The translations under genes and the position numbers were made by a program. Below are positions 16,136-44,902 of a DNA stretch of 44,902 bases, piece after piece. The notes beneath the pieces are model-generated. The model worked only from the letters and a program-made list of their open reading frames with translations. It had not been told where the DNA came from and ran no database searches. Positions within the stretch are counted from its first letter, which is position 1. Every line of letters starts with the position of its first letter. This stretch comes from an uncultured Acidimicrobiaceae bacterium (GTDB lineage Bacteria; Actinomycetota; Acidimicrobiia; Acidimicrobiales; Poriferisodalaceae), in contig CAJWBN010000003.1 of NCBI GenBank assembly GCA_913020735.1, forward strand, positions 1-44,902, written 5' to 3'.

Positions 16136-19100
16136 TTAGTTCCTTTGAGGTACGCCGAATCCTCCACCACCGGGGGTTTCAATCTCGAAGCAGTCAGCTG
16201 GTTCGACTTCCACCCGGGTGCTGCCGGGCAGCTCTTTGGTCGTCCCATCAGCTCTCAAGAGACGGTTGACTCCTACCAGCCCGCTCTGTCCTCCGTCGAC
16301 GCCGTAAGGTGCGACTTTGCGGCGCGACGACAAGACGTTAACGGTCATGGGTTCCAGGAATTGGAGCCGACGTACAACGCCATCGCCCCCTCGTTGCGCT
16401 CCCAGTCCGCCAGAATTTCGTCGAACTTTGAAGTGTTGGACTCTTACCGGGTGACGCCATTCCAGAATTTCGGGGTCGGTCAGGCGAGTATTTGTCATAT
16501 GCGTGTGGACGGCACTTGCGCCGTCCGCTGATGGTGTTGCTCCAGCTCCTCCACAAATTGTTTCGTAATACTGGTGTTCGTCGTTACCCCAAATGAAGTT
16601 GTTCATGGTTCCTTGGGAGCCAGCTATTACACCTAGCGCCCCAAAGAGGGTGTCGACTAGCAGTTGGCTAGTTTCGACGTTGCCTGCAATGACTGCCGCG
16701 GGCGAATGAGGACTAATCATCGACGGGTCAGGAATACGGATATCTAATGGAACTAGGCAACCTGCGTTGAGTGGAATCGCGTCGTTGACCATGCATCGGA
16801 AGACGTAGAGAACTGCGGACCGGCAGACGGCCTTGGGTGCATTGAAATTGCCGGGGTGTTGGTCACTTGTTCCTGCGAAGTCGATGACTGCTGAGCGCTC
16901 AGCGAGATCGACTTTGATCGACACCGCTATTTGATTTCCGTCGTCCATTTCTCCGACGAATTCACAGTCGTTGAGCGCGGCAATTACTCGTCTGACCGAT
17001 TCTTCGGCGTTTTCCATCACATGTCCCATGTATGCGTGGACTACATCAAGGCCGTAGTGGTCAATGACATTGTGCAATTCGGTGGCGCCTCTCTCGCATG
17101 CTGCGACCTGCGCCTTAAGATCAGCAACATTTTGGTCAGGGTTTCTGGCGGGCCATGGTCCTGCTGTAAGTAGGTTTCTAATTTCTTGTTCTAAAAATCG
17201 GCCGCCTTGTACCAACAGAACATTGTCAAGGACTAGGCCTTCTTCATCAATAGTTGTCGAATCAGCTGGTGCCGACCCCGGGACGATGCCGCCTATGTCG
17301 GAGTGATGGCCGCGTGAAGCGACATAGAAGATTCGTTCTCCGGTGGTTTCGTCGAAGATGGGTTTAACGACAGTGATGTCTGGTAGGTGGGTTCCGCCGT
17401 TGTAAGGGGCGTTGAGTACGTATACGTCACCTGGTTCCATTTGAGGATTGTTGGCGATCACTGACTTGATGGCTTCACTCATTGATCCCAGATGAATAGG
17501 TAGGTGTGGAGCGTTGGCGATGAGTTCTCCGTCGGGGTCGAAGATGGCGCAACTAAAATCAAGACGCTCTTTTATGTTCACTGAGACTGCGGTGTTTTCT
17601 AAAACAACTCCCATCTGTTCGGCGATGTTCATGAAGAGGTTGTTGAAGATCTCAAGCTGAACAGGGTTGACGTTCGTCCCGACCGCAGGTCGCTGATTTT
17701 GAGGAGCAATTCGTTCAATAAACAGATCACCGTCCGCGTTTACATGGCCTTGCCAGTTCGGTTCTATGACTGTCGTTGCGTTGGGTTCGACAAGAACCGC
17801 CGGACCGGTTATTGGCGTATCGGGCGACATGTTCTGTCTGTCTAAAAATGGAGTGTCAATGGTTTTGTCGCCCATTGTTGTTGGGAAAATCCCCAGCAAT
17901 GGATCTCCGTGTTGCGAGTTTGTTTCGTTGACTGACAGCGGTTCCGCGAGTCCAACTGCTTCTAGCTGCAGAGACTCAATGATTATTGGTGTTTGTGGTG
18001 AGATAAACCCAAATCGCGCAGTGTGGTGGGTTTCGAATGCTGTTCTGACCTCATCGATTGTGCTTGCCGGTACGAGTAATGCCGTGTCCGAGCCTTGATA
18101 TCGAAGTGAGAGGCGTCGCCGTAGTTCTTGGGCGGTGCCTTCGATGCCCTGATTTTGCAGATATTCGGTTCCTTTGAGTTCTAGTTCGCGCCATCGCGGG
18201 TCTAATTGTTGGAGGTTGTCATGGTCCAGGGTTTGTTCGACTGTTTCGTCTCGGATTTGGCGTACGTCGGCTAGCCCGATTCCGACAGCGGATAAGACTC
18301 CTGCGTGGGGGTGCACATATATGTTTTCTATTCCTAGGCGGTCGGCGACCATGCACGCATGTTGACCTCCCGCCCCTCCGAAACAGACCAGTGCGTAGTC
18401 GGTGACGTCGTGGCCCCGTTCGATACTGATTTTCTTGATCGCGTTGGCCATGTTGTCAGCTGCAATATCTAAATAGCCTTGCGCGATGCTGGTTTCTGTT
18501 TGCTGTATTCCAGTGGCTTCTGTGATTTGTTCGGCTAATACGCCGAATGCTTTGGTTGTGGCCGCGATGTCGAGGGCTTGATTTCCGTCAGCACCGAAAA
18601 CAGCTGGGAAGAATTCTGGACGGAGTTTGCCAAGCACCACGTTGCAGTCAGTGATGGCGAGAGGGCCGTTGTTGCCGTAACAAGTTGGACCGGGGTCAGC
18701 TCCCGCGGAGTCTGGGCCTACTCGTAGTCGGCTTCCATCGAAATGAAGGATCGATCCTCCCCCGGCGGCGACTGTATTGATATCCATCATTGGGGATCGA
18801 ACTCGAATGCCGGCTACTTCGGTTTCGTATGCGCGTTCGAATTCGCCGGCGTAGTGGCTCACATCGGTTGAGGTGCCGCCCATGTCGAAACCGATGAGTT
18901 TGTGCAGGTTGGCGTTTTCCGCTGTGCGAGCCATCCCAACAACGCCTCCAGCTGGTCCTGAAAGCAGGGCGTCTTTTCCTTGGAATGCGTATGCGTCGGT
19001 GAGGCCTCCGTTTGATTGCATAAACATGAGTCTTGGACTGATTTGGTTGTGTCGGAGTTGTTCATCTACCTGAGCGACGTACTGCCTCAAGACTGGTGAT

Positions 19101-19744
19101 AGATACGCATCTACGACGGTGGTATCGCCTCTGGGCACGAGTTTCATGAGGGCGCTCACCTCATGGCTAACCGAAACTTGTTCAAATCCGAGTTCGCGTG
19201 CGATAGCTGCCAGCCGGGCTTCATGGGTTGTGTAGCGGTACCCATGGAGAAGAACGATTGCAACGGAGTTAAGTCCTTGTGAACGCGCTTGTTGAAGCCC
19301 TGCTCGAGCTGCCTTTTCGTCAAGTTGGATCAGTGTTTCCCCATCGGCACTCATTCGCTCTTCCACTTCGAGTACCTCGGTGTAAAGCATTTCGGGGAGT
19401 TTTATGTCAAGAGCGAATAGGTCTGGGCGTGTTTGGTAGCCAATTCGGAGAATGTCAGCGAAACCTTCAGTTGTGACGAGCAGTGTTGGTTCGCCTTGAC
19501 GTTCAAGTAGAGCGTTGGTGGCGACGGTTGTCCCCATTTTGACTGTTTCGATTTTGTCGAGCGGTATGGCTTCGTCTGCGTCGAGTTCCAAAAGGTCTCT
19601 GATGCCCTGGACTGCTGCGTCGCTGTATCGACGCGGATTATCTGAAAGTAATTTGTGGGTGGTTAGGTGCCCGTTAGGAGCGCGGCCGACTATGTCGGTG
19701 AACGTGCCGCCTCTATCAATCCAAAAATTCCAGCAGTCAGTCAT
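16136..19744 (-). CDS. Fused HyuA-HyuB hydantoinase / 5-oxoprolinase (1202 aa)
   Basis: [32 protein letters not shown]-terminal HyuA; second half [20 protein letters not shown]...TPGGGGFG HyuB. Confidence 0.93.
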
Positions 19745-28724: not shown

Positions 28725-28815
28725 TTGGGCATCAGCGAAACGCACAAACAAGTCAACTACCTGCAGGACCTAAATAGCGGCTGGTGAAAACTACTCGTTC
28801 ACTATATTTCAGTAG

Positions 28816-28889
28816 CGCGCCCCGAGGGATTCGAACCCCCGACCTTCTGGTCCGTAGCCAGACGCTCTATCCAACTGAGCTAGAGGCGC
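28816..28889 (-). tRNA. tRNA-Arg (ACG)
   Basis: Reverse strand gcgcctctagctcagttggatagagcgtctggctacggaccagaaggtcgggggttcgaatccctcggggcgc; loop CTACGGA. Confidence 0.95.
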
Positions 28890-28950
28890 ATTCGAGGACC
28901 GCAGTGTACGCAGTCCCACCCGATTGTGAAAACCTAATATTCGGGCTTTG

Positions 28951-29039
28951 CGGAGAGGGTGGGATTTGAACCCACGGACCGCGTGAGCAGTCACTTCCTT
29001 AGCAGGGAAGCACATTCGACCAGACTCTGTCACCTCTCC
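28951..29039 (-). tRNA. tRNA-Ser (GCT)
   Basis: Reverse strand ggagaggtgacagagtctggtcgaatgtgcttccctgctaaggaagt...ggttcaaatcccaccctctcc; loop CTGCTAA, long variable arm. Confidence 0.95.
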
Positions 29040-29155
29040 TGGACGGCGAACCGCCACTGGCCCACCCCCACACCTCAAAAGGCACCTGAGTGAACGGACA
29101 TATCCTACGGCTTAGAAGAGTGGATCGGCCACGTCAGCCCGGTACTGTCTTTTGC

Positions 29156-29243
29156 GGAGGGCTGGCAGAGCGGACGATTGCAACGGTCTTGAAAACCGTC
29201 GAGGTGAAAGCCTCCGGGGGTTCGAATCCCCCGCCCTCCGCCA
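29156..29243 (+). tRNA. tRNA-Ser (TGA), CCA encoded
   Basis: ggagggctggcagagcggacgattgcaacggtcttgaaaaccgtcgaggtgaaagcctccgggggttcgaatcccccgccctccgcca; loop CTTGAAA. Confidence 0.95.
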
Positions 29244-39892: not shown

Positions 39893-39938
39893 ATAGTTGA
39901 GGAGCGGCGGTAACTATCGCCAATGATCCTAGGTTGAG

Positions 39939-40022
39939 TGCGCGAGGAGGGACTTGAACCCTCACACCCTTGCGGGCACAGGCACCTGAAGCCTGCGCGT
40001 CTGCCAGTTCCGCCACTCGCGC
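39939..40022 (-). tRNA. tRNA-Leu (CAG)
   Basis: Reverse strand gcgcgagtggcggaactggcagacgcgcaggcttcaggtgcctgtgcccgcaagggtgtgagggttcaagtccctcctcgcgc; loop TTCAGGT. Confidence 0.95.
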
Positions 40023-40514: not shown

Positions 40515-41156
40515 ATGGGTTTTCCAGGTGTCTCGAGCAGAATAGTCGCGGCTTCTTCGCGCATTTTTCGTACTGCAGTCAGCCCAATGACAGTTGCGCG
40601 AAAGATCAGCCGCCTTCTCCAAAAAGAGCAAACAAATGACACTCACGGTCACCCGATCGTCCCCAATTATTTGATCGTGGCGTTCTCGGCGAAAGACCGG
40701 CAACGATATGGCGGAGCAGAGGAAACGTTACGTCGCCAACTCATCGAGGTAGCTCACAACTACGCCCGCGAAAAAGGGTTGGGATTCACCGGTCCGTTAT
40801 CGATCGACTTTGCTACCAATCCAAGCTTTCGTAACGGGCGCTGCGACATTTCTGGTGAATTCCGGGACGCCCCTATAGGTGATGAAGCCGTTTTAGTCAC
40901 TTCAGACGGACTAAGAGTTTCTATTACGACACCCCAAGTACTTGGGCGTAACGATGACTGTGGTGTCGTACTAGCTGGATCAAACGTAAGCCGTCACCAC
41001 GCTGAAATTCGAGCAGACCAACATGGACTTTTCATCGTTGACCTTGGCTCTACCAATGGCACCATGGTCAATGGCATAGCGATTAACAACCACCGACTGT
41101 TGCATGCCGACATCGTCACAATCGGAGATCACGAGTTGCGAGTTGAGGTTATTTAA
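40515..41156 (+). CDS. fhaA: FhaA-like protein (DUF3662 + FHA)
   Basis: N-terminal DUF3662; FHA LGRNDDCGVVLAGSNVSRHHAEIRADQHGLFIVDLGSTNGTMVNG. Confidence 0.9.
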   Translation: MGFPGVSSRIVAASSRIFRTAVSPMTVARKISRLLQKEQTNDTHGHPIVPNYLIVAFSAKDRQRYGGAEETLRRQLIEVAHNYAREKGLGFTGPLSIDFATNPSFRNGRCDISGEFRDAPIGDEAVLVTSDGLRVSITTPQVLGRNDDCGVVLAGSNVSRHHAEIRADQHGLFIVDLGSTNGTMVNGIAINNHRLLHADIVTIGDHELRVEVI

Positions 41157-41597
41157 ATGTCACCTCAACTTGTACGACTACTAACAATTCTTCTGCTTGT
41201 TCTCATACATCTGTTTCTGTTCAGAGTCATTCGAGCTATTTGGGTGGGCATAAAACCAGCACGAGAAGCTCGGACCCGCGGAAACCGTTTCATTAGGAAC
41301 AACCGACAAGCAAGCGTTCTCATAGTCAGAACTCCTGAAACGTTAAGTGGACAACGGCACGAACTAAATCTCGAGATAACTATCGGGCGAGCAGCGACCT
41401 GCGATGTAACCATTGATGACACCTACGCCAGCCAAATCCATGCCCGAATTTTTCGACGAGAAGGTAACCACGTCTTAGAGGATTTAGGTTCGACCAACGG
41501 CACATATCTAAACCGTCAGAAAGTTTCTTCAGCAACCACCCTCCGCACGGGCGATCACCTCCAAATTGGTTCAACGGTCTTTGAGGTCATGTCATGA
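41157..41597 (+). CDS. fhaB: FhaB-like protein (TM + FHA)
   Basis: N-terminal TM; IGRAATCDVTIDDTYASQIHARIFRREGNHVLEDLGSTNGTYLN. Confidence 0.9.
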   Translation: MSPQLVRLLTILLLVLIHLFLFRVIRAIWVGIKPAREARTRGNRFIRNNRQASVLIVRTPETLSGQRHELNLEITIGRAATCDVTIDDTYASQIHARIFRREGNHVLEDLGSTNGTYLNRQKVSSATTLRTGDHLQIGSTVFEVMS

Positions 41598-42823
41598 ACT
41601 CACCACCGATGCGCAGATTACGCCTCACGTGGGGAGGCGCGACAGATCAAGGCAGAATTCGAGCGAACAACCAAGACGCCATGTATGCGGATTCAGCATT
41701 ATTCGTTGTAGCTGACGGAATGGGAGGTCATCAAGGCGGAGAGGTCGCAGCGAATCTCGCCGTACGTACCGTCGCTAATGCCGATCGTTCTAATAGAGAA
41801 CAACTTCGCGATGCGATAATCGAAGCCAACCGAGTAGTCCACGAAACTGCACTTGAAGAACCCGAACTACACGGGATGGGGACGACGTTGACTGCGCTGG
41901 CGGTGAGCCAAGAGGCTGACAGCCATCAATTCGTCATACTAAATGTTGGTGATTCAAGGGTCTATCGACATCGAGATGGTGAACTTGAACAGCTAACCGA
42001 AGATCACAGTTATGTCGCGGAACTTGTACGCCGCGGCGAACTTGATAACCAAGCTGCAGAAGTCCACCCGTATCGGAACATGTTGACCCGAGCAATCGGA
42101 GTTCACGCCGACGTCGAGGTAGACGAATGGCTACTCGAGCCAGTAGCCGGGGACCGTTTCATGTTATGTAGCGATGGCCTCACCAATGAACTTGCCGACA
42201 CAGAAATAGCCGAACAATTGGGGTTAGGCCAGGACCCAAGCACGAGCGCTAAAGCCTTAGTTGGCCTAGCCAACGAACGCGGGGGAAGAGACAACTCAAC
42301 GGTCTTAATAGTTGACGTCCAAGTAGAAGTGATCGAATCCGAAGAGGCAAATCTGTCTTCAGAGACCACCGACTCTCCAACCTCGGTTATCACTCCACCT
42401 AATGAACCAAATCCCTCCAAAGACCGCTCAAAAGATCTTTCTGATCGAACTGAGCAGACATCAAATATAAAAGAACGAAGTTGGCTATATGACCGCGTTC
42501 ATATAAAGCTAAGCGCTGTCGTAATTGCCTTGGTGCTCTTGCTAACTAGCGCCGCAATGGTCACAACCATTGGTTGGTATGCCCGTTCCAGCTACCACGT
42601 AGGCGTTGTAGCGAATCACGTCGTTATTCAAAAGGGACGTATAGGAGGGCTTCTTTGGTTTGAACCAACACTTGAGCATTGGACAGACATCCAAACCGTT
42701 CAACTGACAGAACAAGACCGACAGCGATTAGTTAATGGCGAGCAGATGTCCGATCTCGACGACGCAAAACTTTTTGTTTCAAATCTCAGGAGTCGTCTAA
42801 TCAAAGGTGCGGACGGTAACTGA
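41594..42823 (+). CDS. pstP: PP2C-family Ser/Thr phosphatase (PstP-like)
   Basis: RANNQDAMYADSALFVVADGMGGHQGGEVAANLAV; FMLCSDGLTNELAD; GGRDNSTVLIVDV; C-terminal TM. Confidence 0.93.
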   Translation: MNSPPMRRLRLTWGGATDQGRIRANNQDAMYADSALFVVADGMGGHQGGEVAANLAVRTVANADRSNREQLRDAIIEANRVVHETALEEPELHGMGTTLTALAVSQEADSHQFVILNVGDSRVYRHRDGELEQLTEDHSYVAELVRRGELDNQAAEVHPYRNMLTRAIGVHADVEVDEWLLEPVAGDRFMLCSDGLTNELADTEIAEQLGLGQDPSTSAKALVGLANERGGRDNSTVLIVDVQVEVIESEEANLSSETTDSPTSVITPPNEPNPSKDRSKDLSDRTEQTSNIKERSWLYDRVHIKLSAVVIALVLLLTSAAMVTTIGWYARSSYHVGVVANHVVIQKGRIGGLLWFEPTLEHWTDIQTVQLTEQDRQRLVNGEQMSDLDDAKLFVSNLRSRLIKGADGN

Positions 42824-44144
42824 AGTGAACAATCAGCGGATAGTTGAACTGACGCTTCTGTTACTTGCTGCCTTCATCACACTGGCCACGGTTGCCATAG
42901 CTGCGGTGGCCGAAAGCACTGATATTGGTTGGGCAGCTATCCCCTACTTGGCCGTCTTACTGTTCTTGTGGGCTATCAGCCATCTATCTCTAAGAAAATG
43001 GGCGCCAACGGCCAACGGTTTACTCTTCCCAATCACCGCATTATTACAGGGTCTTGGGGTCGCGTTTATCTTCAGGGTTAACTCAGATCTCCTACTAAAT
43101 CACTTAAGTTGGAGCGCCTTCGCAACCTTCGGCTTTATCTCAGTAATAGTCGGCGTCCGGGACCTAAAACGGCTACAGAACTTTCAGAAACCGCTTGGAT
43201 TGGCCGGCCTTGCGTTGACTTTAATTCCTGTAATCACGAAAATAAGTGACGGGAAAATAGGTTCACACAGATCATTCCAAATCGGTTCTGTGGCTATCGA
43301 CCCAAGTCATCTAGGCACCCTATGTTTGATCATTTTTTTCGCAGGTTGGCTCGCCAATTACCGTTTACGCAACACTGCTGAATATCTAGGTGAAGCAGAA
43401 CGGCTGGACGGCGACCCTTCTCGGTTCGTTCCTCTCATCGGAGCTTGGCTAGTTGCTTCAATTACGGTGATCTTTCAGAGCGACGTAAGTTCAGCGTTCA
43501 TTCTTGTCGCCATATTTCTTTCAATGTGGTGGGTCGCGGTTGGGCGACCACTTGATTTAGTGCTCTTTTTGGCAGCTATTGCTGGATCAGTTCTTATAGC
43601 TCTAAGTAACGTGCCCGAACTACAAGAGCGCTTCGACGCCTGGGCCGACCCCTGGTCCAATCTGCAATTTGGCGAAGTTATTAACCGCTCCACATTTGCT
43701 CTCGCTGGCGGTGGCCTGACTGGCACAGGTCCCGGGGAAGGCTCTGCCAACTGGGTTGTCGGAGCGACTGATCAATTTGCGTTCGTTCCTATTGCCGAAG
43801 AGCTTGGTTTTATCGGCGGCGCCGCTGTTTTATCAACCTTCTTGTTACTTATAGGTGTCGGGTTACGTTTAGCGACCGCCGCCCGAAGAGAATTCGAAAG
43901 CCTGTCAGCTATCGGAATCACAATCTTCTTCGCTAGCCAAGCATGGGCACCTATCGCTGTGGTTCTTCGGCTTCTGCCTCCTAACGACCTATCGTTACCC
44001 TTTGTTTCCTCTAATGGCGGAGCTCTATTTTCGTGCACCATTGCCTTAGCACTCCTACTGAAAATTTCTGAAACCGCTCCGCTCGCATCAAATCCGACTG
44101 AAGTTCTTCCCCAGATTGCATCTGGGACTGAGAGCACACCATGA
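42807..44144 (+). CDS. rodA: RodA/FtsW/SpoVE (SEDS) family protein, with divergent catalytic motifs
   Basis: ~10 TM; FALAGGGLTGTGPGEG, ATDQFAFVPIAEELGFIGG retained; DPSHLGT replaces QPxExxK and SSNGGA replaces SYGGSS. Start 42807 or GTG 42828. Confidence 0.88.
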   Translation: MRTVTEVNNQRIVELTLLLLAAFITLATVAIAAVAESTDIGWAAIPYLAVLLFLWAISHLSLRKWAPTANGLLFPITALLQGLGVAFIFRVNSDLLLNHLSWSAFATFGFISVIVGVRDLKRLQNFQKPLGLAGLALTLIPVITKISDGKIGSHRSFQIGSVAIDPSHLGTLCLIIFFAGWLANYRLRNTAEYLGEAERLDGDPSRFVPLIGAWLVASITVIFQSDVSSAFILVAIFLSMWWVAVGRPLDLVLFLAAIAGSVLIALSNVPELQERFDAWADPWSNLQFGEVINRSTFALAGGGLTGTGPGEGSANWVVGATDQFAFVPIAEELGFIGGAAVLSTFLLLIGVGLRLATAARREFESLSAIGITIFFASQAWAPIAVVLRLLPPNDLSLPFVSSNGGALFSCTIALALLLKISETAPLASNPTEVLPQIASGTESTP

Positions 44145-44902
44145 GCCGCCGTTTATTTCACGTCGGAATCGCTTTTCTTCTTATCTATGGTCTCTTGTTT
44201 TTCCGACTAGAGATGGTTCAGATTGTGAATGCAAAAAGTCTAAGAAATCACCCTCTAAATACCCGAGAGATCACTTTGGACTTTGATGGTCCGAGGGGCT
44301 CTATCCGAACTGCCGATGGGGAAACCGTTGCCCAAACTGTCGCTGTAAGCGGTTCACGAAATCGTTTACGCCAATACCCTTACGGCTCTCTCTACTCCCA
44401 AGTCGTCGGCTACATTTCGGCCAAGCACGGAGGCAATGGGATAGAGCGAAGCCACAACGACTTCTTGGCCGGCAACGACTTATCCGTGCGTATACAAGAC
44501 GGCCGCGATTTATTCGTTGACCAAGCACGCACAGGGCAGGTCGAATTATCGCTCAGGCACGACGTTCAATTAGTTACCAGAGCCGCTATGGCAGGCCACC
44601 TGGGCACGGCCGTGGTCATGGAACCCAAAACTGGATCAATTTGGGGAATGTGGAGCAACCCAACTTTTGATCCCAATCACCTGTCATCTCACGACTTAGA
44701 CGCAGCAGCAATTGACTTCAAACTATTGAACTCTGATCCAGCTCAGCCGTTAACAAATCGAGCTGAGTACCAAAGCGTCGAGATCGGTTCGCTATTCACC
44801 ATTGTTACCGCCGCTGCGGCCATCGAAAATAACCTCAGTGACTTCAATGTTCCAGCGACTTCGTCATTTCCGGCCAGGTCGAACTTCCCCATTATTACTA
44901 AC
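44141..44902 (+). CDS. pbpA: PbpA-like class B penicillin-binding protein, truncated at window end; SxxK degenerate
   Basis: MSRRLFHVGIAFLLIYGLLFFRLEMVQ...AVVMEPKTGSIWGMWSNPTFDPNHLSSHD...AQPLTNRAEYQSVEIGSLFTIVTAAAAIENN. Not in ORF track (open at end). ATGA overlap with rodA. Confidence 0.9.
   Translation, partial: MSRRLFHVGIAFLLIYGLLFFRLEMVQIVNAKSLRNHPLNTREITLDFDGPRGSIRTADGETVAQTVAVSGSRNRLRQYPYGSLYSQVVGYISAKHGGNGIERSHNDFLAGNDLSVRIQDGRDLFVDQARTGQVELSLRHDVQLVTRAAMAGHLGTAVVMEPKTGSIWGMWSNPTFDPNHLSSHDLDAAAIDFKLLNSDPAQPLTNRAEYQSVEIGSLFTIVTAAAAIENNLSDFNVPATSSFPARSNFPIITN

Follow-up and report, generated by a model that had tools for sequence, protein, structure and literature searches.

The closest described relative of the system reported here is the pstP–pknB cell-wall locus of mycobacteria and other actinobacteria, in which RodA, a SEDS family protein, and PbpA, a class B penicillin-binding protein (bPBP), are encoded next to the FHA-domain proteins FhaA and FhaB, the phosphatase PstP and a PASTA kinase. 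We take the mycobacterial RodA–PbpA pair of this locus type to be Rv0017c–Rv0016c. A locus of the same kind ends a stretch of 44,902 nucleotides (hereafter the window) on contig CAJWBN010000003.1 (assembly GCA_913020735.1) of an uncultured Acidimicrobiaceae bacterium. It shares with the known locus the gene order, the domain signatures PF01098 in RodA and PF21922 with PF00905 in PbpA, the adjacent genes for FhaA and FhaB, PstP and the PASTA kinase. It differs from the known locus in that both active sites are lost, PbpA is now better conserved in its pedestal half and the tail of RodA carries an invariant TxxL.

A similar idea is found in the mycobacterial complex of the MviN pseudokinase with FhaA (Gee et al. 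2012, as cited in PMC11898655), where FhaA is recruited by a membrane protein of the cell-wall machinery through a non-catalytic domain that is phosphorylated. In MviN, a flippase carries an inactive kinase domain, whereas here the synthase pair itself is the dead part. The MurJ frames in this order span 547–716 amino acids and can hardly accommodate a pseudokinase domain as well; MviN of mycobacteria has roughly double that length. The residues lost here are also those altered in dominant-negative laboratory variants of FtsW, which keep partner and lipid II binding in Escherichia coli (PMC8765783). Those variants carry single engineered changes, while the present pair combines many natural ones in genes kept by selection. 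Among the titles and abstract openings listed by searches of an open-access library, none describes a natural non-catalytic SEDS protein or SEDS–bPBP pair. The locus, the protein families and the recruitment of FhaA to a phosphorylated cell-wall membrane protein are already known; what appears new is a pseudoenzyme pair derived from RodA–PbpA.

Active-site residues of RodA and PbpA

The original prediction held that rodA and pbpA both depart from hallmark residues, and alignment bears this out for either protein. With 150.9 bits for PF01098 (cut-off 26.4), the window's RodA carries the SEDS family signature. Its catalytic aspartate (D297 in E. coli FtsW numbering) is replaced by glutamine at residue 317. 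Throughout the clade under comparison, comprising 19 genomes of the genera designated g1, g2, g4 and g7 with the window included, this position is Q, L, H or N, differing between genera. Four more cavity positions, those of W138, Q147, Y379 and G380, are replaced in 19 of 19 RodAs (one Q147 position reads X). All 40 other best-match RodAs in the same alignment keep D297. In E. coli FtsW, W138A, Q147E/K, Y379A and G380A are each inactivating (PMC8765783). RodA of this clade (hereafter pseudo-RodA) is, on these residues, very probably catalytically dead. The loss of W138 is weaker evidence than that of the other residues because FtsW of the window's genus is also without it. In these otherwise intact FtsW proteins (L001 on contig C42 of the window's own genome, and L136–L141), W138 is changed to S, T, A or G, and D297, Q147, Y379 and G380 are kept. 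The count of lost residues does not include the positions of R243 and P196 in E. coli FtsW, which canonical cluster RodAs fail to keep as well.

The motifs of PbpA were read by alignment with FtsI, PBP2 and the PbpAs of the order. The protein has the domain signature of a class B PBP, with both PF21922 (PBP_dimer_2) and PF00905 (transpeptidase) above cut-off, and the clade PbpA profile finds its best PDB match in the solved Penicillin-binding protein A 3un7 (E 5e-51). All three transpeptidase motifs are gone: in the window's PbpA, SxxK has become SLFT, SxN has become RCR and KTG has become LLA. Across the clade, the lysine of SxxK and the KTG motif are absent in 19 of 19 PbpAs and SxN is replaced; the serine of SxxK is retained in 12, the rest having Ala or Pro instead. 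Judged by its motifs, PbpA (hereafter pseudo-PbpA) is almost certainly inactive as an enzyme. The contig end cuts pbpA at residue 254, and of these motifs the window shows the SxxK region alone. The 3' part of the gene lies, together with pknB for the PASTA kinase, at the end of another contig of the same genome (C4, locus L007). The overlap between the two pbpA pieces begins at FTIV of SLFT, and the two copies differ slightly (strain variation), which places the contig break within sequence that varies between strains.

A survey of 149 genomes of the phylum served as a control. A PbpA-type dimer domain was present in 133 of these, with no PbpA match in the other 16. Among 130 PbpA loci examined, RodA adjoined PbpA in 127 and was not found in L267, L299 and L303. 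SxxK is present in 130/130 control PbpAs and KTG in 128/130, the other two having gaps there; D297 is present in 126/127 control RodAs, the remaining one being incomplete. Because the same losses recur in 19 genomes of four genera against these intact controls, chance and sequence error in a single assembly are excluded, and the substitutions prove common to the related genomes in which they were to be sought. Two genomes stand outside the clade comparison, namely G003, which gave no match, and G022, with a best match at E 1.7e-17.

Selective constraint, intact synthases and order of losses

The ratio of nonsynonymous to synonymous substitutions (dN/dS, NG86 method) was calculated for the 14 closest genome pairs; these pairs share genomes, none includes the window's own genome, and some genes are missing from some pairs. 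Values are 0.119–0.204 for rodA and 0.111–0.199 for pbpA, compared to 0.100–0.244 for pstP, 0.049–0.213 for FtsW, 0.058–0.360 for FtsI, 0.023–0.064 for the second RodA (RodA2) and 0.013–0.084 for PBP2. Both genes evolve faster than the Rod synthase, yet are clearly under purifying selection, and the relaxed decay against which this ratio had been proposed as a test is not seen. In genus g5, the five closest pairs for each gene give 0.13–0.27 for rodA and 0.22–0.39 for pbpA. For FtsI of genus g4 (L178–L182), values of 0.33–0.36 occur in the closest pairs, above those of the dead PbpA there.

Constraint is unevenly distributed within pseudo-PbpA. In clade pairs at 45–60% identity, the part before SxxK has a mean identity of 68% and the transpeptidase part 44%, and this pedestal half is the more conserved one in 88 of 88 pairs. 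Canonical PbpAs at the same overall identity show 47% before SxxK versus 51% in the transpeptidase part, the former being higher in only 18% of 1177 pairs. Pseudo-PbpA thus inverts the usual pattern, conserving its pedestal half while its transpeptidase half drifts.

The same genomes encode the intact ftsW/ftsI and rodA/PBP2 pairs that the original prediction had suggested looking for. In a paralogue search of 24 genomes (the 19 of the clade and five of g5/g6), intact FtsI motifs were found in 24/24 and intact PBP2 motifs in 22/22 that are readable. RodA2 keeps D297 in 23/23 rows, the RodA2 of G018 being a contig-end fragment outside the table. FtsW keeps it in 22/22 readable rows; G026, whose FtsW is unreadable at this position, appears twice, and among the 24 genomes FtsW was not found in G028. 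MreB occurs in 24/24, sharing a contig with RodA2 in G001 and G013, for example, and giving MreB–PBP2–RodA sets beside FtsW/FtsI. Wall synthesis is presumably left to the intact RodA–PBP2 and FtsW–FtsI pairs.

The order of the losses was read from a tree of fhaB, pstP and pknB (55 rows including the window's own, quick search); 58 loci had been fetched for their neighbourhood, four of which have no recognisable neighbours. The six genera with a dead PbpA form one group (30 rows; Shimodaira–Hasegawa-like approximate likelihood ratio test, SH-aLRT, 100), and the 19 rows with both proteins dead form one group inside it (SH-aLRT 99), so that two changes suffice. This implies that PbpA probably died first, in six genera, and RodA later, in four. 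More than one loss event in PbpA is possible, as the replacing residues differ between lineages. In g5 (L071–L079) and g6 (L065, L067), a PbpA without SxxK adjoins a RodA keeping D297. PbpA of g5 has no recognisable SxxK, SxN or KTG; that of g6 reads PIFS and K-I-G and retains SCN. R246, G371 and G381 are missing from the RodAs of both genera. Since these residues matter in E. coli FtsW (PMC8765783), the RodAs of g5 and g6 are perhaps impaired in another way.

The locus and its signalling neighbours

The window forms the terminal part of contig C3 in a metagenome-assembled genome (MAG) of 2.3 Mb. The last 4.4 kb of the window contain fhaA, fhaB, pstP, rodA and, of pbpA, the initial 254 codons, as follows:

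40515..41156, + strand: FhaA, with FhaA_N and FHA domains (PF12401, PF00498); phospho-binding motifs retained.
41157..41597, + strand: FhaB, with a hydrophobic N-terminus and an FHA domain (PF00498, 74.3 bits); motifs retained.
41594..42823, + strand: PstP, a PP2C phosphatase (PF13672, 65.2 bits); metal-site motifs retained.
42825..44144, + strand: pseudo-RodA, SEDS family, very probably inactive, 439 amino acids; identified by PF01098, a residue table against E. coli FtsW and profile similarity to FtsW and RodA chains of known structure.
44067..44141, + strand: C-terminal tail of pseudo-RodA, residues 415–439, with Thr425-x-x-Leu428; candidate FHA docking motif.
44141..44902, + strand: pseudo-PbpA, almost certainly inactive, first 254 amino acids, covering the transmembrane segment, the pedestal and the start of the transpeptidase domain (PF21922, 62.8 bits; PF00905, 37.8 bits; alignment).

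The start of rodA is placed at GTG 42825, which is conserved in relatives, 42807 being a mechanical start. As had been described, rodA and pbpA are adjacent with a stop/start overlap: the rodA stop (44142–44144) overlaps the pbpA start at 44141 in the sequence ATGA. In relatives, fhaA–fhaB–pstP–rodA–pbpA–pknB runs uninterrupted within a single contig in every case where the retrieved sequence extends far enough. The hallmark residues that fhaA, fhaB and pstP were said to keep are indeed present across the clade: FhaA and FhaB retain the FHA motifs in 17/17 readable genomes, barring one SRRHA and one SQIHT variant, and PstP shows GGRDN in 19/19. PknB likewise shows DFGIA in 19/19. Gene order and intact kinase, phosphatase and FHA sites identify a pstP–pknB cell-wall locus. 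The titled relatives are marine Acidimicrobiales MAGs, including MedAcidi-G3 (79% RodA identity). Several of the eight titled loci lie on contigs already present in the comparison and supply names without adding further independent evidence.

Elsewhere in the window, a tRNA-Leu (cag) lies upstream of the fhaA cluster (39938–40022, - strand), and three more tRNAs are located at 28815–29243. A single open frame of 1202 amino acids (16136–19744, - strand) presumably represents a fusion of subunits of the hydantoinase/oxoprolinase A and B type.

Possible function of the RodA–PbpA pair

In the otherwise variable C-terminal tail of pseudo-RodA, T425 and L428 alone are invariant, in 19/19. T425-x-x-L428 conforms to the FHA-client pattern of a Thr with I, L or V at +3, a short motif that also arises by chance; TxxI/L/V is one of two FHA consensus motifs listed in PMC8786283. 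The topology of SEDS proteins would place this tail on the cytosolic side. T184 is also invariant in pseudo-RodA, in a loop that is probably cytosolic. In RodA of Mycobacterium bovis BCG, Thr463 presumably lies in the C-terminal tail. This residue is phosphorylated in vivo (PMC4389566). Whether the pseudo-RodA tail serves in FHA docking we consider evenly balanced.

We propose, with a probability of roughly 55%, that the pair is a RodA–PbpA complex without either enzymatic activity, kept as a membrane scaffold or substrate sensor under kinase/FHA control. Pseudo-RodA and pseudo-PbpA would still bind one another. PknB would phosphorylate Thr425 in the RodA tail and PstP would remove the phosphate; FhaA and/or FhaB would dock on phospho-Thr425, turning the dead pair into a phosphorylation-controlled membrane platform. 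On the outside, the pair may still bind lipid II or peptidoglycan and may thereby report wall synthesis to the kinase pathway, or to the active RodA–PBP2 and FtsW–FtsI. This proposal is based on the tail motif, on the binding retained by FtsW variants and on the regulation of SEDS–bPBP pairs through periplasmic contacts and the pedestal (PMC10257715). The conserved pedestal half of pseudo-PbpA, the genomic setting and the phosphorylated RodA of M. bovis BCG lend it further, indirect support. The E. coli FtsW variants W138A, Q147E and D297A still localise and bind both FtsI and lipid II, yet septal peptidoglycan is not produced (PMC8765783, Table 3), so a protein with changes of this kind could serve binding alone. 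A more specific version is tentative: the SEDS–bPBP pair would have turned into a signalling complex whose old substrate site and pedestal read lipid II or nascent peptidoglycan outside and whose phospho-Thr tail is offered to FhaA/FhaB inside, setting with PknB the activity of the intact synthases, the pseudo-synthase having evolved stepwise with the transpeptidase lost before the polymerase.

Several observations weigh against a non-catalytic platform. The tail motif is unspecific to dead RodAs, as TxxI/L/V occurs in the tail of 36/127 catalytic RodAs of the phylum; among the nearest intact relatives in the family, which differ in the tail motif, some TxxI/L/V is present in two of five. The shared ancestry of the 19 genomes means that invariance does not amount to 19 independent observations. 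AlphaFold2 gave no structural support, with a mean predicted local distance difference test score (pLDDT) of 36.3 for pseudo-RodA and 30.7 for pseudo-PbpA from nine-row alignments. Finally, all 19 clade RodAs share an aspartate at residue 316 (D316), immediately preceding the catalytic position, which makes a shifted active-site Asp possible and is the one serious argument for a working polymerase. In the order, 3/24 catalytic RodAs carry TxxI/L/V in the tail, so the motif may be a regulatory element that recurs among RodAs and is strictly preserved in the dead one. Nine survey RodA tails (L229, L239, L241, L249, L260, L215, L223, L225 and L272) end in T-x-E-I-L-[IV]-G-G-R, a strikingly conserved sequence, and T-[EQ]-V-[IV] closes the tail in several further genera; both endings possibly act as FHA docking sites in catalytic RodAs.

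If D316 had taken over as catalytic Asp, RodA would still be a polymerase with the dead PbpA as its allosteric activator, in keeping with the requirement of SEDS proteins for a bPBP as allosteric partner (PMC10257715) and with g5 and g6, where RodA retains D297 beside a PbpA without SxxK. Yet D316 aligns with T296, which is dispensable in E. coli FtsW, where H295 and T296, the neighbours of D297, tolerate change (PMC8765783). The D297 position itself varies between genera, and the four other residues needed in FtsW are gone throughout the clade. A shifted active site is therefore unlikely. The decoupling from catalysis could also reflect slow decay, in which a redundant elongation synthase, dispensable through RodA–PBP2, is heading for loss. 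The presence of intact RodA2/PBP2 and FtsW/FtsI, the varying active-site residues, the drifting transpeptidase half and the dN/dS of rodA and pbpA above that of RodA2 and PBP2 all fit such a course. Decay is nevertheless very improbable, given that the frames are open in the examined genomes across four genera with gene order retained, that 120 of the 439 pseudo-RodA positions are invariant in the clade, and that dN/dS (0.11–0.20) resembles that of PstP and FtsW in these genomes. Somewhat less improbable, but still doubtful, is a dominant-negative brake or decoy that engages lipid II or active-synthase partners (e.g., MreC, PBP2) and holds them back unless the kinase releases them. The pedestal, which is the MreC contact in PBP2 (PMC10257715), is the conserved part of pseudo-PbpA; a brake of this kind is partly the same proposal as the scaffold, the main difference being whether the effect is positive or negative.

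Wall synthases of the SEDS–bPBP type are almost universal and serve as drug targets. This lineage separates the structural and signalling role of RodA–PbpA from catalysis, which is hard to achieve in mycobacteria, whose RodA and PbpA remain enzymes. The sister genera offer an intermediate stage, with a dead PbpA and a RodA keeping its Asp. The pair shows which surfaces, i.e., the pedestal, the membrane part and the C-terminal tail, are selected for reasons besides catalysis.

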